Source of the DNA: Acetofilamentum sp.
Lineage (GTDB): Bacteria > Hydrothermota > 32-111
DNA: 43,515 bases
NCBI GenBank assembly: GCA_020721805.1
Contig: DYMB01000004.1
Coordinates: forward strand, 1 to 43,515
Direction: 5' to 3'
Shown here: positions 3,600 through 41,319 of the stretch, piece after piece
Position numbering within the stretch: the stretch's first letter is position 1
Layout of the letters: each line of letters opens with the position of its first letter
The notes under the pieces: model-generated
What the model saw: the letters and a program-made list of their open reading frames with translations, nothing else
Told to the model about the DNA's origin: nothing
Databases searched by the model: none
Translations under genes and position numbers: made by a program

Positions 3600-4168
3600 A
3601 CATAGCAATTTATGGTGGAGGGTTTGATCCTGTTCACATAGGGCATATTTTCCCTGTGCAGTACATACTCGATAAAAAATATGTTGAAAAGGTAATAATA
3701 ATACCTACCTACAGACAGCCTTTAAAGGAAGAATATTCTACCCCTTTTGGAATAAGGCTCAGAATGGTTGTAGAGGCTTTCAGAAAAATAGATAATGTTA
3801 TCGTTTCTGATATCGAGAGCAGGATGCCTTTACCATCCTATACGATCTATACTCTGAAAAAATTAAAAGAAGAACACAAAAATGAGAATTTTTATCTTAT
3901 AGTTGGAGATGATGAGGCTAAAAATATAAAAAAATGGCATAGGTATGATGAGTTGAAAAAATACACAAATTTTATCATCCTTAGAAGAGGTTATGAAATG
4001 TCAGAAAAGGAGAAAGAGTTTTTTAAAGATGCATTGTTTTGTGATAATCCTTTGATAGATATTTCTTCCTCTTTGTTGAGAGATTACATAAGAAAAGGTA
4101 TAAGGGTTGATCACCTGATACCAAATAATGTGGTCGATATAATAAAAACTGAAAAACTTTACATATGA
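3596..4168 (+). CDS. nadD: Nicotinate-nucleotide adenylyltransferase
   Basis: Transfers AMP from ATP to nicotinate mononucleotide in NAD synthesis. The nucleotidyltransferase signature GGGFDPVHIGH occupies residues 7-17 and contains both histidines of the HxGH motif. The other ATP-binding motif, ISSSLLRDYIR, lies near residue 160, and YLIVGDDEAKNIKKWHRYDE is the usual NadD substrate region. The length of 190 residues is typical. It overlaps the genes on both sides by ATGA, and no ribosome-silencing factor or obgE gene, frequent partners elsewhere, is present. Confidence 0.95.
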   Translation: MNIAIYGGGFDPVHIGHIFPVQYILDKKYVEKVIIIPTYRQPLKEEYSTPFGIRLRMVVEAFRKIDNVIVSDIESRMPLPSYTIYTLKKLKEEHKNENFYLIVGDDEAKNIKKWHRYDELKKYTNFIILRRGYEMSEKEKEFFKDALFCDNPLIDISSSLLRDYIRKGIRVDHLIPNNVVDIIKTEKLYI

Positions 4169-6639
4169 AAAAAGATCTGTTTCTTGTTGATCTGACAAAT
4201 ATTATTTATAGAAATTTTTTTGCTTTTATGAGAAATCCACTTAGGAATTCTAAAGGTATCAATACCTCTGCAATTTTTGGAACTTCAAATTTTTTACTTG
4301 AATTGATGGATTCCAATAAAATTGAATATATCGCCTGCACGATTGATTTAAAGGAACCAACATTCAGACATCAACTGTATCACGATTACAAATCTGGGAG
4401 GGAAAAAGCACCTGACGAACTTTTAACTCAGATACCGGTTATCTACGAAATAGTTGAAAATCTTGGTATAAAAATATTTTCACAGAAAGGTTATGAATCG
4501 GATGATATACTTGCAAGTCTAACCGCAAGATTCTATGATGATTTTGGAAATATATATCTTGTTACAAGCGATAAGGATATGGGACAATTGATAGACCAAA
4601 AGGTGAAAATTCTCTATCCAAAAAAAGAGAACGGTCTTTATCCTATACTTGATGTAAAAGGCATTCAGGAAAGATTGAACATAAAAAAAGAACAGATAAT
4701 AGACTATTTTTCTTTGATCGGTGATAGTATAGATAATGTGCCGGGGATAGAAGGGATAGGACCAAAAACAGCGGAGAGATTATTATCAGAGATGGATTCT
4801 CTTGATAATTTTTTCACCAATCCTTCAGTTGTGAAAAATGAAAAAATAAGGGAAAAACTTTTAAACAATGTAGAGAATCTTAAAAAATATAGAGAACTCA
4901 TCAGATTGAAAAAAGATGCGAATCTAAAGGCTGATCTGGATGATCTGAAAACTGGAAGAGTGAATGAAAAAAGACTCAAAGAGATTTTTAAAGAATATGA
5001 AATTTTCTCCCTTATGAAAAGATTCGAGGAAAAGAAAGTTGAACAGAAGGATGATATTGTTAAAACTGATTCTTTTGAGAAACTTCTTGATGATGATTCA
5101 ATATTCGTTATAAAGGTTGAAAAGAGAGTTTTTTTTGGTTCAAAAAAATTTTTATTTGAAACCGATTTTGATAAACTTGATTTTAAAATTTTTGAAAAAC
5201 TGACCCATAAGATTTTAATATTTGAAAATTTTAAAGATTTTGTAGAACTTCTGGAAAATCTTTCAGATTATGAGATATTAGATATAAACACTTTAAGCCA
5301 GATTCAGGGAAAGAATGCTAACTTAAAAAGAATCGTTGAGGAATTGTATGGAGAAAATTTTGATACACTCTCTATAGTTGATCTTGTGAAAAAATTTCTT
5401 TCAACAAAGGAAAAATTTGTAAATAACTGTAAGGATGATTTAAATTTCCCTGTATACAATAGTATAGAACTTCCCATAATACCATCAATAGTGAAGATGG
5501 AGAAGAATGGTATAAAGGTTGATGTTGAGTTTTTCAAAAATAAGGAGGAGCAACTTGTAAAAGGGATAGAGGATATAGAAAAAAGGATTTATGAGATAAC
5601 CAAAATAAGATTCAACATAAATTCTTCAAAGCAGGTTTCCGAAGTCCTTTTTGAAAAAATGAATCTAAAGCCGTTTAAAAAAGGGAAGACTGGTTTTTCT
5701 ACCGATTATGAGACTCTTCTAAATCTTAGAGGGACAAGCCCTGTTATTGATCTTATATTACAACATAGAGAATTCTCAAAACTTTTAAAAGGTTATGTTC
5801 AACCGATTTTAAACTTAACGGTAGATAACGACATAATCCACACAACTTTTGAACAATCGTATGCTGCTACCGGAAGGTTTTCATCAAGAAATCCAAACTT
5901 GCAGAATGTTCCAGAAGATATAAGGGAAGGGTTCATAGTTAGAAATAAAAATAATTTCTTTGTTTCAATGGATTACTCACAGATCGAGTTAAGGGTTCTT
6001 GCCTTTCTTTCACAGGATAAAAATTTGAATAAAGCCTTTGAAGAGGGAAGGGATATCCATTCTGAAACGGCAAAACATATTTTTGGAGTTGAAAATGATC
6101 TGATAGATGAGAGGATGAGAAGTCTTGCTAAGATAATAAATTTTTCAGTTATATATGGCAAAACTTCCTATGGTTTGAGTCAGGAATTGAACATTCCCAA
6201 AAAGGACGCAGAAAATTTTATAAAAAGATATTTTCAAGAATTTTTTGAAGTTAGAAAATGGATAGATGAAACCATTAAGGAAGCAAAAAAGAGTGGATAT
6301 GTAAAAACTTTTTTTGGTAGATGCAGATATATTCCAGAAATCTTGTCTTCAAACAAAACTGTAAGAAGTAGCGGAGAAAGGATGGCGGTTAATACTCCGA
6401 TTCAGGGAACGGCAGCAGACATAATGAAAATGGCTATAAAAAATGTTTATTCAAAAATTAAAAATAAAAACGATATTATGATGATTCTTACGATACATGA
6501 TGAACTTGTATTTGAGATAGATGAAAGATCTCTTGATAGATACATGGAACTCTGTGAAAAAGCGATGGTTGACATAAAACCTTTTGATAAGATCTTAAAG
6601 GTTAATGTAAAAAAAGGTAAAAACTGGAAAGAAATTTAA
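4165..6639 (+). CDS. polA: DNA polymerase I, proofreading domain degenerate
   Basis: Replication and repair polymerase. Residues 1 to about 275 are the 5'-3' flap exonuclease (FLVDLTNIIYRNFF, GYESDDILA, LVTSDKDMGQL, GDSIDNVPGIEGIGPKTA). Residues about 430-824 are the family A polymerase: motif A VSMDYSQIELR with Asp603, O-helix RSLAKIINFSVIYG, and motif C IHDELVFEI with Asp779. The middle region (about 290-420) is short, and I find none of the Asp/Glu motifs of a 3'-5' exonuclease. The architecture is therefore like Taq polymerase, with 824 residues against 832. It ends the first operon. Confidence 0.96.
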   Translation: MKKDLFLVDLTNIIYRNFFAFMRNPLRNSKGINTSAIFGTSNFLLELMDSNKIEYIACTIDLKEPTFRHQLYHDYKSGREKAPDELLTQIPVIYEIVENLGIKIFSQKGYESDDILASLTARFYDDFGNIYLVTSDKDMGQLIDQKVKILYPKKENGLYPILDVKGIQERLNIKKEQIIDYFSLIGDSIDNVPGIEGIGPKTAERLLSEMDSLDNFFTNPSVVKNEKIREKLLNNVENLKKYRELIRLKKDANLKADLDDLKTGRVNEKRLKEIFKEYEIFSLMKRFEEKKVEQKDDIVKTDSFEKLLDDDSIFVIKVEKRVFFGSKKFLFETDFDKLDFKIFEKLTHKILIFENFKDFVELLENLSDYEILDINTLSQIQGKNANLKRIVEELYGENFDTLSIVDLVKKFLSTKEKFVNNCKDDLNFPVYNSIELPIIPSIVKMEKNGIKVDVEFFKNKEEQLVKGIEDIEKRIYEITKIRFNINSSKQVSEVLFEKMNLKPFKKGKTGFSTDYETLLNLRGTSPVIDLILQHREFSKLLKGYVQPILNLTVDNDIIHTTFEQSYAATGRFSSRNPNLQNVPEDIREGFIVRNKNNFFVSMDYSQIELRVLAFLSQDKNLNKAFEEGRDIHSETAKHIFGVENDLIDERMRSLAKIINFSVIYGKTSYGLSQELNIPKKDAENFIKRYFQEFFEVRKWIDETIKEAKKSGYVKTFFGRCRYIPEILSSNKTVRSSGERMAVNTPIQGTAADIMKMAIKNVYSKIKNKNDIMMILTIHDELVFEIDERSLDRYMELCEKAMVDIKPFDKILKVNVKKGKNWKEI

Positions 6640-17365: not shown

Positions 17366-17566
17366 ATGAAACTTCAAAAGGATGAAATCAAAAAAAATAA
17401 TAAGGGAATCAGATTTTCAACAACAAGTATGATTATTTTTTTTGTTGCTATAGTTTTGTTGATAATAGGATATATTTTACTTTCAAAAGGTGATCTTAAA
17501 ATCGCTCCAGTTTTACTTTCACTCTCTTATGTTGTTTTGATACCGCTTGCGATATACAAAAAATGA
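17366..17566 (+). CDS. Small two-helix membrane protein, DUF3098-like
   Basis: It has 66 residues: a charged N-terminus, then two hydrophobic helices (about 19-41 and 45-63) separated by SKGDLK. The pattern GYILLSKGD ... IAPVLLSLSYVVLIP resembles the DUF3098 family seen in Bacteroidetes-like lineages, where it sits near cell-division genes. The match is by pattern only and not strong. AAGGAG lies five bases before the ATG, and its stop overlaps the next gene's ATG. Function unknown. Confidence 0.6.
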   Translation: MKLQKDEIKKNNKGIRFSTTSMIIFFVAIVLLIIGYILLSKGDLKIAPVLLSLSYVVLIPLAIYKK

Positions 17567-19629
17567 AGAGACTAATTTTATTTTTTGTTATAGTTATAAG
17601 TCTTTCGATTTTCTCTCAGGAAGCCACTGATATTTTTAAACAGGTGCTTTTACTTGAAAATGAAGCTTTCAGCATCGCACCAGCATATGGAGATATGCTT
17701 AAAGGAGAGGGTTTAGTATCCGATATAGATTTTGACATAATGAGGGAAAAATATAAAGAGGTTCTTTCCGAAGGGGAGAAAAATCCCTTCATCTATCTGG
17801 CATACGGCTTCACATTCCATTATAAAAAAGATTATGATTCTGCCAATTTTTATTTTGAAAAGGCTTCAAACATCTCGAATTTAGATTATCTTTTGCATTT
17901 AAGACTATATCAGATATATTCTATCAATGTTGTTAAGAGAATGATGGATTACGAACTTGGGCAACTTGATAAACTTAAATATATGATAGGTGCAACATCA
18001 CTCCCTGAAATAGCAGCATATCTTAATTTTGTTGCGATCGAAAGCTATCGAAACAAAAAAACGGATGATGCTTTAACATATCTTTTACTTGCAACAAAAC
18101 TCGATCCTTTTAACATCCAAATTGTTAACAACATTCTCAATTTGAGTATTAAAGAAAAAAGATTTGAATATATTGGTTTTGCAATGGCTAAATTTAAAAA
18201 TTATTTTAAGGATGATGTGGCAAAAATTATTTTTATTTACAATATTTTGAAATTCACAAGATATTTTGTTTTAATATTCTTTCTGTTTATAGTTATAACA
18301 TTGATGATAAAAAACCTCGACAAATATTTATATTTTTTTCATAGATACATAAGAATAAAACTGCTACCAAAACAAAAGATATTTCTCGCACTTTTAATAT
18401 TATTTTTACCGTTGATTTTACAGATGAATTTAATCCTCTGGATTTTCTATGCCACAATAATAACATTTTCATTTTTTGAAAAAAAAGAAAAAATATTTTT
18501 GATAATAGTCTTATTACCAACTTTTCTCATACCTTTTATCTATAAGATCGAATCACATATAATAGGTGTATTGAATCCTGACAATAACATAAATGTGATA
18601 TTAAAGGCTGAAAATTCTTACTGGAATGCGAAACTTTTCAACAGGCTTAACACTTTACTCGAAGAGGAACCGTTCAATACAGCGCTTCTTTTTTCAAAAG
18701 CTAAACTTTACAAGAAGGGTGGTTTTTTTGAAAATGCTGAAGAAGAATATTCGAAAATACTTTTGAAAGGGGAAAGTTTTGCTGAATTATATAATAATCT
18801 TGGTAACCTTATGTTTCTTAAAGGTTTTTACAACAAGGCTATAGATTATTACAATAAATCTATTGAAATTTCTCCCGATCTTGCTGAACCCTATTATAAT
18901 CTTGGTCAGGTTTATCTTAAATTGTTGAATCTCCAGAAATCAAACGAGTATGTTGAAATAGCCAATAAGTTGAATTATGAACTTATAAGTTCTTTTCTTG
19001 AAAACACCGATGAGAACTTTTACAACACTGTTGTCATCGATTGTCCTTTACCTGAAAAATACATATGGGAAGAATTTGCGAAAAGAAAAAAAATAGAGAA
19101 TACACCTATTATGATGGGATTGAGAATAGGTATCTACAATCTACTTTCATTCTTCACGATTATATTATCTATCATTTTAAACTTTTTATCTTCACACAGA
19201 ATAAGAATATCAAGATGTTATACCTGTAATAAACCTATATCCGAAGGTGATAGGATAAAATATAATGAAAAATATATCTGTAAAGATGATTATGCCATAA
19301 TAAATGATACCATCTCTGATCTGTTGAAAGTTAGAAAATTCGAATCCTTTGTTAGAATCAAAAAAAAGAAGAATTTTATTCTAAGAAAAATATTATCTGT
19401 TATTTTTCCGGGGCTTGGTAAAATATATAAGGGAAGTTATTTTACAGGTATTATGCTTTTAGTTTTCTCTTTAAGTTTATTGATTTTGATTTTATTTAAA
19501 GATCTTTTCCTTACGAGAAATCCGAACTTTAAAATAGGTATTCAACTCTTTGATGTTAAATTTCTTTTCCTTGGAATTTTGATCTTATTCTATTTTATAA
19601 GTTTTATAACAACGAGGAAGGAAAAATGA
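17563..19629 (+). CDS. Multi-pass membrane TPR protein with a zinc-knuckle-like motif
   Basis: It begins with a signal-peptide-like helix ending SIFSQ, an external helical repeat region, and about four membrane helices near residues 228-325. A TPR block follows (about 345-475; LYNNLGNLMFLKGFYNKAID is the clearest unit), then another helix near 515-540. The next part has Cys552, Cys555, Cys573 and Asp576, spaced as one zinc finger. Two C-terminal helices follow the motif IFPGLGKIYKGSYFTGIMLL, which resembles the Gly-rich turn of TM2/DUF5683-type membrane proteins. I do not recognise the full-length family. It overlaps the PATAN gene, and both probably work at the inner membrane. Confidence 0.65.
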   Translation: MKRLILFFVIVISLSIFSQEATDIFKQVLLLENEAFSIAPAYGDMLKGEGLVSDIDFDIMREKYKEVLSEGEKNPFIYLAYGFTFHYKKDYDSANFYFEKASNISNLDYLLHLRLYQIYSINVVKRMMDYELGQLDKLKYMIGATSLPEIAAYLNFVAIESYRNKKTDDALTYLLLATKLDPFNIQIVNNILNLSIKEKRFEYIGFAMAKFKNYFKDDVAKIIFIYNILKFTRYFVLIFFLFIVITLMIKNLDKYLYFFHRYIRIKLLPKQKIFLALLILFLPLILQMNLILWIFYATIITFSFFEKKEKIFLIIVLLPTFLIPFIYKIESHIIGVLNPDNNINVILKAENSYWNAKLFNRLNTLLEEEPFNTALLFSKAKLYKKGGFFENAEEEYSKILLKGESFAELYNNLGNLMFLKGFYNKAIDYYNKSIEISPDLAEPYYNLGQVYLKLLNLQKSNEYVEIANKLNYELISSFLENTDENFYNTVVIDCPLPEKYIWEEFAKRKKIENTPIMMGLRIGIYNLLSFFTIILSIILNFLSSHRIRISRCYTCNKPISEGDRIKYNEKYICKDDYAIINDTISDLLKVRKFESFVRIKKKKNFILRKILSVIFPGLGKIYKGSYFTGIMLLVFSLSLLILILFKDLFLTRNPNFKIGIQLFDVKFLFLGILILFYFISFITTRKEK

Positions 19630-25321: not shown

Positions 25322-26997
25322 GAATACTCTTTTACATAATATTACTTTTACCTTTACTGATAAATTCTTTTAACATACTCTCCCAAAGAGATCTTCTTCT
25401 GGTAGAAAATTTTTTTGCTTCAGAACTAAATGACTATAAAATGCTTGATTCGATAGGTGATATATATTTAAAAAATGTTTTAAAGAAAATTGCCATAAAT
25501 GAATTTTTAAAAAGAAAAGAATTTGAAAAAATTGTAGATATAGAGTTTGAGTTAAAAGAGACCTACTTAAACATTCTTTTAAAAAACCAGACGGATACAA
25601 CAATTTTGAACTATTTTAATGCAAGAGGTATAAAGATTCAAAATTATACTCTTGATTTAAAATATGCTCTTACTGATAAAAAAAATATAAAATCTTTCGT
25701 CTTGAAGTATCCTATGGATAAAATCTCAATAAAATTTTTTAAAGAGAACCCTTCATTGTTCGATTTTAATGATTCCATCCTTATTTTTAAAAAAAATTTT
25801 TTAAGTGAAAATTTTTTTGATCTTGTGGACACATTAAGAATCTCCACGCTGGAAAATTTTTTTGTAATTTTTAAAAAAGATGATACTCTGGAGATTAAAA
25901 AGGTAATAAATTCAAATTTTGATCTATTCGATAGAATTGAGAGTAAAAGTTTTAAAATAAAATACTCTAAATTTTTAAATGAACAGAATTTAAAAGGTAA
26001 TTATATTTATTTTCTTGGAAGATATTATGAAAAAAACAGAGAATACAAAAAGGCACTTGAACTATACCGTAAAGTTAAAGATGATGAAGCGATCTTAAGG
26101 ATAATCGCTATTTTAAGAAATGAGAATGTTGTTGGAATATATGATTCCATAATAAGAAATTATAATGGAAATGATCTAAATTTTCTTTATCATAAGGCTA
26201 AATATTTATATAATGTTGATAAAAAAATATCAGATTCAATTTTTGAAATCGTCTCCAAAAATTTCCCATTTTCTCTTTACTCTGTTCGTTCATTTATACA
26301 TTTAAACAAAAAAATTGAATTTTTGGATGTAAAATATTCAAAAGATTCTTTACTTTTAAAACTTTTTCAACTTTTTGCAGAAAATGGTTATTCTAACTTT
26401 TTCAAAGATTATCTCAACGAACTTTACAAAGCGAATACTGTTGATAGAGATTATTTGATCTATCTTTTTGATAAATTTGGATTTTATAACTATTCTATTT
26501 ATTATTCAGAAAATATGATCAAATCGGGTAAAAATTATAAAAAATATTTAAAATTTTTATTTCCAACACCCTATCTTGATATCTTTAAAAAGATTGGAAA
26601 AGAGGAAGATATGGATTATTCTTTACTTCTTGCATTAGCCAGAGAAGAATCCTCATTTTCTAAAGATGCCATCTCTTCAGCTTCTGCAAAGGGAATAATG
26701 CAACTTATGGATTTTGTTTATGATTCATTTTATAAGGATAAAGATTATTTTAATGAAGAAAAGAATATTCGAGTTGGAGCCAAACATTTAAAAAGTTATT
26801 TAAAGGAGTTTCCCGATTCACCCGTTGAAGCTATCATGGCATATAATGGTGGTGTGAATACTGTAAAAAGATGGAAGAGAAAATACTCCGATTGGGAACT
26901 TTTTATTGAAAGTATTCCATATCTGGAAACTAAAAATTTTGTAAAAAAGGTTTTACGATCCTATTATTTTTATAAATTTGTGCTTAAAGTATCATAG
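25318..26997 (+). CDS. slt: Slt70-like soluble lytic transglycosylase
   Basis: Cleaves the glycan strands of peptidoglycan with release of anhydro-muropeptides. It has a signal-peptide-like N-terminus, then about 400 residues of helical superhelix (with TPR-like parts) and a C-terminal SLT domain (about 425-555). The catalytic acid is Glu444 in LAREESSFSKDAISSASAKG, followed by the conserved IMQL, AKHLKSYL and AIMAYNGGVNTVKRW. The 559-residue length fits the family. It ends the large operon and its 3' end overlaps that of the minus-strand M23 gene by 28 bases. Confidence 0.9.
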   Translation: MRILFYIILLLPLLINSFNILSQRDLLLVENFFASELNDYKMLDSIGDIYLKNVLKKIAINEFLKRKEFEKIVDIEFELKETYLNILLKNQTDTTILNYFNARGIKIQNYTLDLKYALTDKKNIKSFVLKYPMDKISIKFFKENPSLFDFNDSILIFKKNFLSENFFDLVDTLRISTLENFFVIFKKDDTLEIKKVINSNFDLFDRIESKSFKIKYSKFLNEQNLKGNYIYFLGRYYEKNREYKKALELYRKVKDDEAILRIIAILRNENVVGIYDSIIRNYNGNDLNFLYHKAKYLYNVDKKISDSIFEIVSKNFPFSLYSVRSFIHLNKKIEFLDVKYSKDSLLLKLFQLFAENGYSNFFKDYLNELYKANTVDRDYLIYLFDKFGFYNYSIYYSENMIKSGKNYKKYLKFLFPTPYLDIFKKIGKEEDMDYSLLLALAREESSFSKDAISSASAKGIMQLMDFVYDSFYKDKDYFNEEKNIRVGAKHLKSYLKEFPDSPVEAIMAYNGGVNTVKRWKRKYSDWELFIESIPYLETKNFVKKVLRSYYFYKFVLKVS

Positions 26998-27857
26998 AAA
27001 AAGTAAATTGGAATTAAAAAAGAATTTTCGGGATCAATGGGTTCATTATTTCTTGTGATTTTGTAAAATACGGATGAGGTTAAGGTTCTTCCCGTTTTTC
27101 CCGCGATTCCAATTTTTTGACCTTTTTTCACATACTCTCCACCTCTAACATTTATTATCGAAAGATGGGAAAACTCTACTTCATAAAGTCCGCTATCTAT
27201 TATAACCGTATTACCATTTTTTTTGTTTTTTATACCTGCGAATTTGACAACTCCTGAAACTGTTGAGAATACATCACTGTTGGGATCTGCTACAAAAAGT
27301 ATACCTTTTGAAATTTTTTCATTCTCAGTAAAAGGATCCAGAATTTTTCCATATCTTCTTAAAACCCATCCATTTATGGGAACAAGGGAAGGTATTCTTT
27401 CATTGTTTTTTCTATTTTTTATAAAATTTAATGCCGAATCAGAAACCTGTTTAAAATATTCAACAACAAATAAAAGTGTATCAAGATTTGAAGTTAATTC
27501 TATATCATAAGTCTTTTTTTCAATTTCACCCGAAAAGAAATTAACAAAAGGAACTAAAAGTTTTATATTCTGTTTTAAATCCGTTATCTGAGATTTTACA
27601 GAGTCTATATTACTTTTTATTTCTTTATTTTTTTGTGAAAGTATTTCGATTTCCTGTTTTGTTTTTTTTACCTGTGAAAATTTATTGATGTTTCTTAAAT
27701 TTCGAATTGTTATAAAAGTAAGTATACTCAACAAAAAGATCGTTAACAGAATAATCAAAGGAATAAGAACGGAATATGTTTTTATCTCCCTCGGTTTGGA
27801 TGAATCGTGGGGGATAATTGATATATTGATTTTTCTTTTTTTAAGAGATTTATCCAT
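26970..27857 (-). CDS. Membrane-anchored M23/LytM-like protein, active site degenerate
   Basis: One membrane helix (about 29-51), a coiled coil (about 58-105) and a C-terminal LytM fold (about 155-275). The motif that should read H-x-G-x-D reads S183-K-G-I-L187, and the last H-x-H reads S262-V-F264. Only the middle His (His231, in FSHLS) remains. Without the zinc ligands it should not cut peptidoglycan. Such inactive LytM proteins (EnvC and NlpD type) activate amidases or bind wall partners, so this role is inferred here. Its ATG overlaps the sigma-factor stop by eight bases, making it the third gene of the htrA-sigma operon. Confidence 0.8.
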   Translation of the reverse strand: MDKSLKKRKINISIIPHDSSKPREIKTYSVLIPLIILLTIFLLSILTFITIRNLRNINKFSQVKKTKQEIEILSQKNKEIKSNIDSVKSQITDLKQNIKLLVPFVNFFSGEIEKKTYDIELTSNLDTLLFVVEYFKQVSDSALNFIKNRKNNERIPSLVPINGWVLRRYGKILDPFTENEKISKGILFVADPNSDVFSTVSGVVKFAGIKNKKNGNTVIIDSGLYEVEFSHLSIINVRGGEYVKKGQKIGIAGKTGRTLTSSVFYKITRNNEPIDPENSFLIPIYFFYDTLSTNL

Positions 27858-28683
27858 TGTATGGCTCCAGTATATTTTTGGTCATATCTTTCAACTTGTT
27901 TATAGCACGTTCCTTTATCTGTCTTACCCGTTCTCTTGAGATGTTAAGTTCTTTCCCTATCTCTTCAAGAGTATGTGGACGATACCCTTCAAGACCAAAA
28001 TATTTTTTTAATACATAGGATTCCTTCTCTGATAACTTTTCAAGTTGATTTTTCAATGTCTCCTTATATCTTTTTCTTAAAAGAACTTCTTCAGGTGAAA
28101 GGTCGTTTTCTTTAACAATGGTATCACCAAGGTAAAGGTTATCGGTTCCCTCTAAAGGATCGGATAAAGATAATTCGATTTTATTCATATTTACAATATT
28201 TTTAACCTCATTTTCAGAAATCCCGAGTTTATCTGAAATTTCCTTAAAGGTCGGTATCCTATTCTCTTTGTCGATAATTTCATTTTGCACTCTGTTAACA
28301 TTGTTTATTTTTGTTATCTGTGATAAAGGTATCCTTATATTGCTGTTGTTTTCGAGGATAGCCTTTATGATGGATTGTCTTATCCACCAAACTGCATATG
28401 AAATGAATTTAACATTTTTGTCAGGATCGAATTTTTGTGCCGCCTTTATCAATCCAAAATTTCCTTCATTGATCAGTTCGAATAGAGAGAGTCCTTTCCC
28501 CTGATACTCTTTAGCCACATTTACAACAAACCTTAAATTTCCGAGTAAAAGTTTTTCCAATGCCTTCTTATCTCCATTTTTAATTTTCCGTGCAAGTTCC
28601 TTTTCCTCTTTTTCAGAAAGTAAGGGATACTTTTTAATTTCCCTTAAATATATCTCAAGCGAGTTATCGTTAAACTCTTTTAT
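27850..28683 (-). CDS. rpoD: RNA polymerase sigma factor, RpoD/SigA family, without region 1.1
   Basis: Carries regions 1.2 (NSLEIYLREIKKYPLLSEKE), 2 (LRFVVNVAKEYQGKGLSLFE and FISYAVWWIRQSIIKAIL), 3 (IPTFKEISDKLGISENEVKN) and 4 (LEEIGKELNISRERVRQIKE). Architecture and size (277 residues) resemble the short primary sigma factors of Bacteroidetes-like bacteria. The first ATG/GTG/TTG in frame (TTG, codon starting at 28560) would delete region 1.2. Upstream there is no ordinary start; AAGGAAGG (28689-28696) is followed after five bases by ATA at 28681-28683, which I take as the start. It lies 20 bases after htrA and may be co-transcribed with it. Whether it is the main sigma factor or a stress sigma is not decided by sequence. 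Confidence 0.82.
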   Translation of the reverse strand: MKEFNDNSLEIYLREIKKYPLLSEKEEKELARKIKNGDKKALEKLLLGNLRFVVNVAKEYQGKGLSLFELINEGNFGLIKAAQKFDPDKNVKFISYAVWWIRQSIIKAILENNSNIRIPLSQITKINNVNRVQNEIIDKENRIPTFKEISDKLGISENEVKNIVNMNKIELSLSDPLEGTDNLYLGDTIVKENDLSPEEVLLRKRYKETLKNQLEKLSEKESYVLKKYFGLEGYRPHTLEEIGKELNISRERVRQIKERAINKLKDMTKNILEPYNG

Positions 28684-28703
28684 CTCTACCTTCCTTAAAA
28701 AAA

Positions 28704-30161
28704 CTATTTAATTTTTATGACAACCCATATGTTAATGTTGCCTCTTTTAACGGTAAACAGAAGATCCTGATTATTTTTAAATTTGTTTTGAACATTTTTA
28801 AAATCGTTAACATTGTCTATTAAAATATTTTCAATCTTAGTTATCACATCTCCTATCTGTAAACCAGCTTCAATAACAGGTGATGTTTGATCTATTGAAG
28901 TTATCACAACACCATTTTTAACTTTTATATCAAATTTCTGTTTATTTTCAGGTGTAATATTTTCGACCTCTATTCCAAGCCAGTTATCTTTTAAATCTTT
29001 GTTTTCTTCTGTGGATGAGATATTTTCTACAAGTTCACCGATCTTTACATTCAAATTTATTCTTTTTTTGTCTCTTATGATTACTATTTTAACATCTTTT
29101 CCAACCTTTGTTTGAGCCACAAGAATTCTAAATTTGTTGACATTTTCTACAACCTTACCATCATATTCAACTATCACATCACCTTCTTTTAATCCAGATT
29201 TTGATGCCGGTGAATTATCCTCTACCTGAGAAACCAGTATACCAGTTTGATCCTCTTTTAAACCAAATTTCTTTTTTAATTCCGATGTAAGTTCCTGTGG
29301 GTATATACCAAGATAACCTCTAGAAACAACTCCTTTATCTTTCAATTGATTCACTATCATGACAACAAGGTTTGAGGGTATTGCAAAACCGATTCCAACA
29401 TTCCCACCAGATGGGGATGCGATAGCAGTGTTTACACCTATAACATTCCCATAGATATCTACAAGTGGTCCGCCTGAATTACCAGGGTTTATCGAAGCAT
29501 CGGTTTGAATAAAATCTTGATAAACCGGGCCCTCTCCCAGGTTTATGTTTGATCTGTTTTTTGCTGAAATTACACCGACGGTTATTGTTCCATCAAAACC
29601 AAATGGATTACCTGCAGCCATAACCCAATCACCAACCTGTATACTATCTGAATCACCAAAATTTAGATATGGTGTGTTTTTTACATTTTTTAATTTCAAC
29701 AACGCTATATCGGTTCTTTCATCTTTTCCAACAATCTCTATTTCTTTATCTTTAAAGACTCTTCCATCTATCAGTTTAACGGTAATATTTTTTGCATTTC
29801 TTATCACATGGTTATTTGTTACTATATATCCATCTGATGTGATTAAAAATCCTGTTCCAAGTGAAGTGTTTCTATTTTCAAGTTGAGGAAAATCTTTGAA
29901 AAATTCTCTAAAAAAAGGATCATCAAAAGGGAAAAAGGGGGAAACTTTTACAACCGTTTCAGAAGAAATATGAACCACAGCAGGGCTGACTTTTTTGGCT
30001 AATTCTCTAAAATTGGGATACGCTGAGTTTGAATAATCTGCTGATATTATTTTAACCTCTCCGGAAGTTTGTGCTTCAACCCTATCCACTATTTTTGCGA
30101 AAACTATGCCAAGCATAAAGACAGAAACTATTGTAAAAAGAATAAGTAAAACTCTTTTCAT
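28704..30161 (-). CDS. htrA: Periplasmic Do/HtrA-type serine protease with two PDZ domains
   Basis: Envelope quality-control protease and chaperone. A single N-terminal helix (about 4-24) acts as signal or anchor. The triad is visible: TNNHVI (His), RTDIALLK (Asp) and NPGNSGGP (Ser). Two PDZ domains follow, at about 290-385 (RGYLGIYPQELT ... GLKEGDVIVEYDG) and about 395-485 (GLQIGDVITKIEN). At 485 residues it fits DegP/DegQ. AAAGGAGG lies four bases before the ATG. It leads an operon with a sigma factor and a LytM-like protein, which suggests an envelope-stress unit. Confidence 0.95.
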   Translation of the reverse strand: MKRVLLILFTIVSVFMLGIVFAKIVDRVEAQTSGEVKIISADYSNSAYPNFRELAKKVSPAVVHISSETVVKVSPFFPFDDPFFREFFKDFPQLENRNTSLGTGFLITSDGYIVTNNHVIRNAKNITVKLIDGRVFKDKEIEIVGKDERTDIALLKLKNVKNTPYLNFGDSDSIQVGDWVMAAGNPFGFDGTITVGVISAKNRSNINLGEGPVYQDFIQTDASINPGNSGGPLVDIYGNVIGVNTAIASPSGGNVGIGFAIPSNLVVMIVNQLKDKGVVSRGYLGIYPQELTSELKKKFGLKEDQTGILVSQVEDNSPASKSGLKEGDVIVEYDGKVVENVNKFRILVAQTKVGKDVKIVIIRDKKRINLNVKIGELVENISSTEENKDLKDNWLGIEVENITPENKQKFDIKVKNGVVITSIDQTSPVIEAGLQIGDVITKIENILIDNVNDFKNVQNKFKNNQDLLFTVKRGNINIWVVIKIK

Positions 30162-38339: not shown

Positions 38340-39571
38340 TGAAAAAAAGATTCTTTCTCTTTTTTTCATATTTAATCATTCTTTTTATAGGATGTTCAAA
38401 AAACTATAATATAGAATCTAATAAAAATGAACCTGTTTTGAGGGTTGCACTTAAACATAAAGTAAAGGATACATTCATAACTTCCACAGGTGAATACAAA
38501 ATTTCTACCCAGACAGGTGAACTCATTTTAACACCTGATGATACCTGTTTTATTTATTCTTTAGGGTCCTCACCTCAAGTTTATATAAACCGTTCAAAAA
38601 AAATAATGATAAAAAATTATCCTTTAAAATTTATCCCTTTACAAAGAAAAAATTTTATAATCTATGAAGGGATGGTTTACAGAGGTCAAATACAGATCAT
38701 AAAGGATGTCGATGGTTTTATACTCCCCATCAATATAGTTTACCTTGAAGATTATTTGAAAGGCGTTGTTCCATCGGAGATAGGTAAACTTGATAAAAAA
38801 AGGTTTGAAGCCTTAAAAGCACAGGCTGTTGCAGCAAGAACTTATGCTATAAAGAATCTAAACAGATATTATGATATGGGATACGATCTCGAATCAACCA
38901 TTTCAGATCAGGTTTACAGAGGTGTTCTTGTTGAGGATACGCTCGTAAATCTTGCTGTTGAGTTTACAAAAGGAGAAATAATAACATATAAAGATAAACC
39001 AATAGAAGCAAAATATCATTCCACCTGTGGAGGTTATACGAGTAATAATGAAGATGAATGGGGTGGAACCCCTCAACCATATCTAAGATCTGTGAAAGAT
39101 TCTCCCGGTGGATGTCTTTGGATTTCTTCTAAACCATACTGTAAAGATTCGAAACATTTCTTATGGACATATCAATTCGAAAGGGGAACTTTTTATAAAA
39201 TTGTTTCAAAGAACGCATCAAACATTTTTAATGCTGATCTTGATGTTGTTAAATTTAAAATAAATAAAAAGGATAAACATAAAAGAGTGGTTGAGGTTGA
39301 ACTTAAAACTAAAGATGGTAAAAAATATTATGTTAAAGGACTGAACATAAGAAAGTTGATAACTTTTGAAGAGTATTATGGCGGATTTTTGAAAAGCCGT
39401 TTATTTGAAATAAAAGAGGATAAAGAAAAAATAGTGATATCTGGAAAGGGATTCGGACATGGTGTTGGTATGTGTCAGTATGGTGCTATGGAGATGGCAA
39501 AAAGAGGTAAAAATTACAAAGAAATCTTAAAGCACTATTACAGGGGGACCAAATTAAAAAAGTTGTACTGA
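38339..39571 (+). CDS. SpoIID/LytB-family lipoprotein, probable lytic transglycosylase
   Basis: The signal peptide ends in the lipobox LFIGC (Cys19). The SpoIID domain has the segments YLKGVVPSEI (with the Glu expected to be catalytic), LKAQAVAARTYAI, the CGGYTSNNEDEWGGTPQPYL region, and the C-terminal GKGFGHGVGMCQYGAMEMAK. In spore-formers SpoIID digests septal peptidoglycan; in non-sporulating bacteria SpoIID-like proteins act in wall turnover or division. The ATG at 38339 is used; a TTG just upstream is also open. It lies inside a serS operon and leads into the tamA/tamB genes. It has 410 residues. Confidence 0.88.
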   Translation: MKKRFFLFFSYLIILFIGCSKNYNIESNKNEPVLRVALKHKVKDTFITSTGEYKISTQTGELILTPDDTCFIYSLGSSPQVYINRSKKIMIKNYPLKFIPLQRKNFIIYEGMVYRGQIQIIKDVDGFILPINIVYLEDYLKGVVPSEIGKLDKKRFEALKAQAVAARTYAIKNLNRYYDMGYDLESTISDQVYRGVLVEDTLVNLAVEFTKGEIITYKDKPIEAKYHSTCGGYTSNNEDEWGGTPQPYLRSVKDSPGGCLWISSKPYCKDSKHFLWTYQFERGTFYKIVSKNASNIFNADLDVVKFKINKKDKHKRVVEVELKTKDGKKYYVKGLNIRKLITFEEYYGGFLKSRLFEIKEDKEKIVISGKGFGHGVGMCQYGAMEMAKRGKNYKEILKHYYRGTKLKKLY

Positions 39572-41319
39572 TTTTTTTTTATCTGATATTTTCTATATCC
39601 ATATTTTCTGAAAAAATCAGGAACATTTTAATCGAAGGGAATATATATTATTCAGAAAAAGAGATAATAAAAGTTTTAAAAATAAAACAGGGGTTGAATA
39701 TAAGCAAAGTGGATTTCAATAAAAGAAAGAATCTACTTATTTCTTTCTATAGATCAAAAGGTTTTCTCGATGTGGTTATTGAAAATTTTGAAATGCGTAC
39801 CATTTTAGGTTATACTGATGTTTACATAAAGATTCAGGAAGGATTTTTAACAACTTTAAAAGACATTAAAGTTTTTGGTAATACCATATTTGATGATGAA
39901 ACGATTCTATCAGTATTTGAATTTAAAGAAAATTCACCTTTGGATTTGAATAGAGTATATCAAAAGGAGATAACTATTCTTGATATGTATGCTTCTGTTG
40001 GGTACATTTATGCAAAAGTTAATTTTGATTTTATATCACAGGAAAATAGGTATAGGAAAGTTTTATATGTCAACATTGATGAAGGGCAAAAAACTTTTTT
40101 AAGAAACATTTATTTTGATTCGGTTAATTTTAAAAACACGAAAAAAATTTTTGAAATAGAAACAAAAAATTTTAAAAATAAAGATTACAAACCTGAGGAT
40201 ATATACTTTTTACAGAGAAAAATTTTTTCAACAAATCTTTTTAACTCTTTAAATTTTAAAATAGATGGTATTCCCGATGAAAAGGAGACTCTTGATGTAT
40301 TTTTCTTTGGAGAGGAGAAAAAGAAAAATTGGATATCTTTATCATTTTTATACCAGTTTCCAAACAAGATTAAAATATCCACAGGGATTGGCAACGATAA
40401 TCTTTTTAACGGTGCGGAAAAATTATCTCTTGAAACTTCTGTTTCAGCCTCATTTTTGTTTGATCAAAATTTTTTATACGATAAATGGTTTTATACTATT
40501 TTTAAGTATAATATTCCATATATTTATAATACACTTTTCTCTTTGAATTTGCTCACCGGGTTCAACATTGAGAGCAATCCAAATTTCCTAAAAAGGGATC
40601 TCGTTACCAATTTGGGAGTTAGTAGAATGTTAGGATCTTTTTCTTTTTCCAACAACTGGTATTATAGATATTCTTTGATAGATACTTTTTATGAAGATAA
40701 AAGTTTCAGATATGAAAAAACTACAACCAATTTGGTTAACTTCAACATCATTTTCAATTCAAGGGACGAGCTGATTTTCCCAAGAAAAGGAAATTACACT
40801 TCGACAAAAATTGAGTATGCTGGAGGTATTTTAAGAGGTTATAACAATTTTTATAGATTCGTTTATGAAAATATTTACTACATAGGATATAGAAATCTTA
40901 TAGTAAACTCTTTCAGAATGAGAACTGGAATAATTTTCCCATATGGGGCTTCATTGAAAAATGGAATTTCCATAAATGAACAATTTACATTGGGAGGGAT
41001 ATCAAGTATAAGGGGAGTTGAACAGGATTCAATAGGACCTTTGAATGATCTGGGAACCCATTCTGGAAACTTTCTGGTGAATTTAAACTATGAGTTAAGA
41101 GTCATAGCATACCATTCCTTTGGTATGGTTTATTTTTTTGATAGTGGATTTTTAAAAGAAGATTTCAATTTTCAGATGAATATAAAAGATTTTGTTTTTG
41201 CCGGAGGTATTGGATTATTTTATAATACATTTCTTGGTACTATAAGATTTGATATTGCCAGACCTTTGAATGCTCAGGGAAACACAAAGTATTATTTTAA
41301 TTTAGGAAATCCTTTTTAA
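39553..41319 (+). CDS. tamA: Omp85-family outer-membrane protein with POTRA domains, TamA-like
   Basis: The first ATG/GTG/TTG in frame is a TTG at 39694, which would leave a protein without signal peptide and with half of the first POTRA. The frame is open upstream to 39511. Its peptide, starting at an ATT at 39553, reads KKVVLIFFYLIFSISIFS after the initiator, a perfect signal peptide. AGGGGG lies five bases before the ATT, so I take this as the start. About three POTRA domains follow (roughly 20-250), then a 16-strand barrel with IRGV in the loop 6 position and a C-terminal Phe (KYYFNLGNPF). Three POTRAs and the downstream tamB-like gene favour TamA over BamA. It overlaps spoIID by 19 bases. 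Confidence 0.8.
   Translation: MKKVVLIFFYLIFSISIFSEKIRNILIEGNIYYSEKEIIKVLKIKQGLNISKVDFNKRKNLLISFYRSKGFLDVVIENFEMRTILGYTDVYIKIQEGFLTTLKDIKVFGNTIFDDETILSVFEFKENSPLDLNRVYQKEITILDMYASVGYIYAKVNFDFISQENRYRKVLYVNIDEGQKTFLRNIYFDSVNFKNTKKIFEIETKNFKNKDYKPEDIYFLQRKIFSTNLFNSLNFKIDGIPDEKETLDVFFFGEEKKKNWISLSFLYQFPNKIKISTGIGNDNLFNGAEKLSLETSVSASFLFDQNFLYDKWFYTIFKYNIPYIYNTLFSLNLLTGFNIESNPNFLKRDLVTNLGVSRMLGSFSFSNNWYYRYSLIDTFYEDKSFRYEKTTTNLVNFNIIFNSRDELIFPRKGNYTSTKIEYAGGILRGYNNFYRFVYENIYYIGYRNLIVNSFRMRTGIIFPYGASLKNGISINEQFTLGGISSIRGVEQDSIGPLNDLGTHSGNFLVNLNYELRVIAYHSFGMVYFFDSGFLKEDFNFQMNIKDFVFAGGIGLFYNTFLGTIRFDIARPLNAQGNTKYYFNLGNPF

Follow-up and report, generated by a model that had tools for sequence, protein, structure and literature searches.

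Against AUA or AUU, the initiator tRNA(CAU) forms just two base pairs, at the first and second codon positions. For infC, a non-canonical start is usual among bacteria. In a reconstituted system IF3 disfavours weak pairs at the third base (PMC10158994), and in reporters AUA and AUU starts of Staphylococcus aureus yield about 10-30% of AUG (PMC13009471). Two precedents concern sigma factors. The Streptomyces sigR start is repressed by IF3; it is GTC in 32 of 34 species and GTT in two, and never canonical (PMC5472188). In E. coli, an rpoS allele changed from ATG to ATA still makes RpoS, up to 5-fold less of it (PMC12864459). Here we analyse a sigma-factor gene for which the original prediction had proposed an ATA start, in a window of 43,515 nucleotides (the whole stretch of DNA that was analysed).

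The sigma-factor gene and its start site

The gene occupies 27850-28683 on the reverse strand and encodes a protein of 277 aa in which Pfam regions 1.2, 2, 3 and 4 were all found while region 1.1 is absent. SigA and RpoS are the closest solved structures among its PDB matches. Its best NCBIfam match, rpoS_proteo (TIGR02394), scores 244.8 bits against a curated cut-off of 378.7, which places it outside RpoS sensu stricto. Because the same genome holds a second, larger sigma factor, a separate primary one with a 590-aa frame, the gene is best termed a group-2 (RpoS/SigA-like) sigma factor.

Upstream in the operon lies htrA (28704-30161, reverse strand), named from its sequence as an HtrA/DegP-type periplasmic protease, and a putative M23-type peptidase gene (26970-27857, reverse strand) overlaps the sigma stop by 8 nt. 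With these two neighbours and no anti-sigma gene adjoining, the locus is not a SigR-type sigma/anti-sigma operon. This gene order, seen here at 26970-30161 (-), recurs in every one of the five available family genomes and in most of the phylum; it is somewhat like the proteobacterial nlpD-rpoS arrangement, with the M23-type gene on the opposite side.

The htrA stop codon TAG is at 28706-28704 (-). Open reading in the sigma frame begins at 28707, with ATA GTT TTT TTA AGG AAG GTA GAG ATA AAA GAG TTT AAC GAT AAC TCG CTT GAG. The original prediction held that this frame offers no ATG, GTG or TTG between the htrA stop and region 1.2, and the codon listing agrees: none occurs among the 49 sense codons that separate the in-frame stop at 28710 from a TTG at 28560, the first ordinary in-frame start codon of the gene. 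The putative start is the ATA at 28683-28681 (-), 20 nt past the htrA stop. A Shine-Dalgarno (SD) sequence, AAGGAAGG at 28696-28689, precedes it by the five bases that had been predicted, the spacer TAGAG at 28688-28684. The organism's own 16S gene ends GGATCACCTCCTTTC, and the SD pairs with this tail at -9.4 kcal/mol. If formyl-Met is read at the ATA, the predicted N-terminus of the product is (f)M-KEFNDNSLEIYLR. Around the starts of the five family sigma genes, mRNA folding did not stand out clearly from shuffled controls (z -1.5 to 0.7).

Translation might instead begin at TTG 28560, where the frame has its first ordinary start, with the upstream part left untranslated. That would remove all of region 1.2, which lies entirely upstream of the TTG and is complete at residues 8-39 of the ATA-started protein (Pfam PF00140, E 2.4e-13). 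The TTG is also poorly spaced from an SD. Its codon is not conserved, being TTG in the own genome and in its congener G001, TTA in G003 and CTT in G004 and G002, and the five sigma genes share no canonical codon further downstream. In addition, dN upstream of the TTG is 0.17-0.49 while dS is above 1.2 or saturated, which indicates purifying selection on the N-terminal codons. Initiation at the TTG is thus highly improbable, and no ATG, GTG or TTG is plausible as the sigma start. We consider it almost certain that the gene starts at a genuine near-cognate ATA. Gene finders limited to ATG, GTG and TTG would trim the protein by 41 residues, with the loss of region 1.2.

Conservation of the rare codon in the family and the phylum

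The comparison of this codon across related genomes, suggested with the original prediction, found either ATA or ATT in each of the four relatives. The five available family genomes read ATA (own), ATT (G001, same genus), ATA (G003), ATA (G004) and ATT (G002). The corresponding start regions are AAGGAAGG-TAGAG-ATA (own), AAGGAAGG-TATAT-ATT (G001), AAGGAG-CAAAAA-ATA (G003), AAGGAG-TATGCG-ATA (G004) and GTGAGG-CACACTT-ATT (G002), and in each the SD pairs with the 16S tail (-6.4 to -9.4 kcal/mol). Two genomes have ordinary in-frame codons nearby that might still serve as starts, although they are badly placed for the SD: a TTG five codons past the ATA in G003 and an ATG inside region 1.2 in G001. 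A base-calling or assembly error hiding a true ATG at 28683 might be imagined, since one base decides and the genome is a draft of 74 contigs. The occurrence of two different rare codons in five separately assembled genomes shows that the ATA is no sequencing slip, and we regard the chance of such an error as negligible.

Family dS ranges from 1.3 to above 2.4 where computable and is otherwise saturated. With silent sites at or near saturation, ATG, only one base away, had ample opportunity to appear. These data suggest that the weak start is quite probably under selection.

Another possibility is that the codon is tolerated and not selected, with coupling to htrA feeding re-initiating ribosomes to a start whose identity matters little. 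The gap between the htrA stop and the sigma start is indeed just 10-20 nt in all five genomes, with the SD directly behind or overlapping the stop. However, genes often lie close together in this gene-dense window, and the other genes still keep NTG. Nor is coupled re-initiation exempt from IF3: in E. coli it requires initiator tRNA and IF2 and drops as IF3 rises (PMC2268962), so coupling to htrA would leave the sigma gene IF3-sensitive. We therefore consider mere tolerance unlikely and selection for the weak start the better account.

At 105 of 110 homologous loci in the phylum, the open frame offers an ordinary start codon ahead of the residue that aligns with Ser8. The five loci without one are four members of the sigma's own family and G023; the fifth family member, G003, has just a TTG, which stands four codons ahead of that residue and at the wrong distance from the SD. 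Another family, f5, is mixed at the aligned start: G017, G038 and G042 have ATG, G034 has GTG, and G011 and G023 have ATA. The last two make up one genus, g8, with ATA in both genomes and the same htrA-sigma-M23 operon; the sister genera use ATG or GTG. In G011 a TTG directly abuts the SD, which weakens this outgroup case. From the aligned sequences, it appears that this sigma gene acquired a rare start on two or more occasions within the phylum. As most of the phylum uses ATG, GTG or TTG for the same gene, the sigma factor can do without a weak start.

Start codons in the rest of the genome

Relaxed start selection had been offered as one explanation: the lineage would initiate freely at ATA and ATT, and the sigma start would have no regulatory meaning. 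Two rare starts in one window fit this idea, as does one more candidate, an unshared ACG in G001. To survey start codons, 635 kb of the own 1,703 kb (37%) were compared with 1,085 kb of G001 in 397 reciprocal best ortholog pairs of at least 45% identity. An aligned canonical start was common to 384 pairs. Of the 13 pairs without a shared start, only the sigma gene and a TamA-like gene lack a canonical codon in both genomes when in-frame codons are considered as far as the start of conservation; within the 37% covered, the search for further rare starts that the original prediction called for yielded no other shared case apart from infC. Its central claim, an ATA start in the sigma gene, is borne out by this rarity (2 of 397 pairs) together with ATA or ATT in five of five family genomes.

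Ortholog pairs were used because a scan of a single genome for an SD before non-canonical codons was too noisy: among 1005 codons that lie ahead of the first canonical starts of 402 genes, 42 are preceded by an equally strong SD, so that an SD match in one genome is weak evidence. Of 208 own genes whose canonical start follows a strong SD, 200 are matched by a canonical codon at the aligned position in the congener; the remaining eight are mostly alignment shifts at double starts. Some survey candidates dissolved on a shared ATG further in. The candidate at L229 (own C3, - strand, 3983-4691 of the reverse complement) was shifted by a run of twelve A, and those at C18 29306 and 361410 are truncated or frameshifted genes. 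The congener gene of L229 is in frame further upstream, and the frameshift is either real or due to assembly. At G001:C14, the ortholog of the L231 gene (own C5, - strand) reads AAAAGGAG-TAATTT-ACG where the own genome has ATG; with no ordinary start nearby, this is a possible ACG start or a point error. An ORF at L122 ~17478-18077 (+) (own C18 217478-218077) lies right behind a terminator-like hairpin and runs for 48 codons free of ATG, GTG and TTG.

A tRNA scan of sampled stretches turned up neither tRNA-Ile(UAU) nor any further unusual tRNA. The infC gene, whose inspection had also been proposed, starts with ATC in the own genome and ATT in the four relatives (read by eye); it was missed by the automatic start test because chance GTG and TTG codons occur in an upstream hairpin. 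It lies at L001 1460-2010 (-), with the ATC behind AAAGGAGG, and the hairpin with its T run is a possible attenuator or terminator. This is the third case, and a rare infC start is commonplace and is what autoregulation of IF3 would lead one to expect. IF3 itself is not degenerate, being full length with a PDB match across residues 4-167. Given 384 of 397 shared canonical starts in the 37% of the genome surveyed, relaxed selection is quite improbable.

The second rare start belongs to a TamA-like Omp85 gene (39553-41319, forward strand) with POTRA and Omp85 domains. Its ATT is at 39553-39555, and the codon listing has no canonical in-frame start before the TTG at 39694. The SD, AGGGGGA at 39542-39548, lies four bases upstream and not five, contrary to the claim that its spacing is identical to that of the sigma gene. 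The ATT is kept in all four family genomes that hold the gene, behind SD cores AGGGGGA, AAGGGGA or AGGGGA at four bases. In the own genome (39542-39556, +), G001 and G003 it lies within the end of a SpoIID gene and the next base is A, so that any NTG there makes a TGA stop in the SpoIID frame. Judging from these sequences, this constraint may explain the ATT without any regulation. In G002 the SpoIID stop precedes the ATT and the constraint is absent; the ATT is nevertheless kept. Because of the overlap the two rare starts need not share one cause, and common IF3 control of the two genes is possible.

Proposed control by IF3 and comparison with known systems

We favour, with a probability of roughly 0.7, the reading that a near-cognate start discriminated by IF3 throttles this RpoS/SigA-like sigma factor; the IF3 control is inferred. 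The two-base pairing of tRNA(CAU) with AUA would lead IF3 to reject most sigma initiation complexes. A small, steady yield would still be allowed by the good SD and perhaps by ribosomes that come from htrA. Such a low, IF3-sensitive supply would keep the regulon silent until the operon is transcribed more strongly or free IF3 declines. The original prediction that the rare start lowers the sigma level and ties it to IF3 agrees with the conserved codon class, the intact IF3, the ATC of infC and the precedents. By the same reasoning, AUA would give a low yield and IF3 is likely to be the factor that discriminates against it. It could also be that low yield is itself the aim, without IF3 as the signal. 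The neighbouring htrA and M23-type peptidase genes suggest a role in envelope stress.

It could be speculated that the family has a small IF3-sensitive regulon comprising infC, the envelope-linked sigma factor and the TamA-like outer-membrane assembly protein. We give this a low probability; if it were true, the state of translation initiation, as free IF3 per 30S, would set both outer-membrane biogenesis and the transcription that answers envelope stress.

The locus resembles infC autoregulation (AUU in E. coli, AUA in S. aureus, ATC in Streptomyces and in the own genome) in its conserved near-cognate class and strong SD. That feedback acts on IF3 itself, whereas the sigma factor would be a target outside the loop. 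A conserved AUA or AUU start with a strong SD is likewise found in ccpN of S. aureus and B. subtilis (AUA) and in S. aureus cvfC1 (AUU), one of which is a transcription regulator; unlike the gene described here, these encode a Firmicutes repressor and a small protein, and no sigma factors are among them (PMC13009471). The E. coli rpoS ATA allele shares an AUA start on an RpoS-type sigma factor and, in contrast to the present case, is a recent laboratory mutation and no conserved feature (PMC12864459).

The sigma gene is most like sigR of Streptomyces: both encode sigma factors whose non-NTG start is conserved, follows a strong SD and changes from one rare codon to another. On the other hand, the SigR operon includes the anti-sigma factor RsrA, while the group-2 sigma gene here is flanked by htrA and an M23-type gene; the codons are AUA and AUU and not GTC; and the control by IF3 that was shown there is inferred here. 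Drift among rare codons that never reaches NTG provides a simple comparative test by which more cases may be found. Beside sigR, this is a second and phylogenetically distant sigma factor with a conserved near-cognate start, which suggests that throttling of sigma factors by IF3 proofreading recurs.
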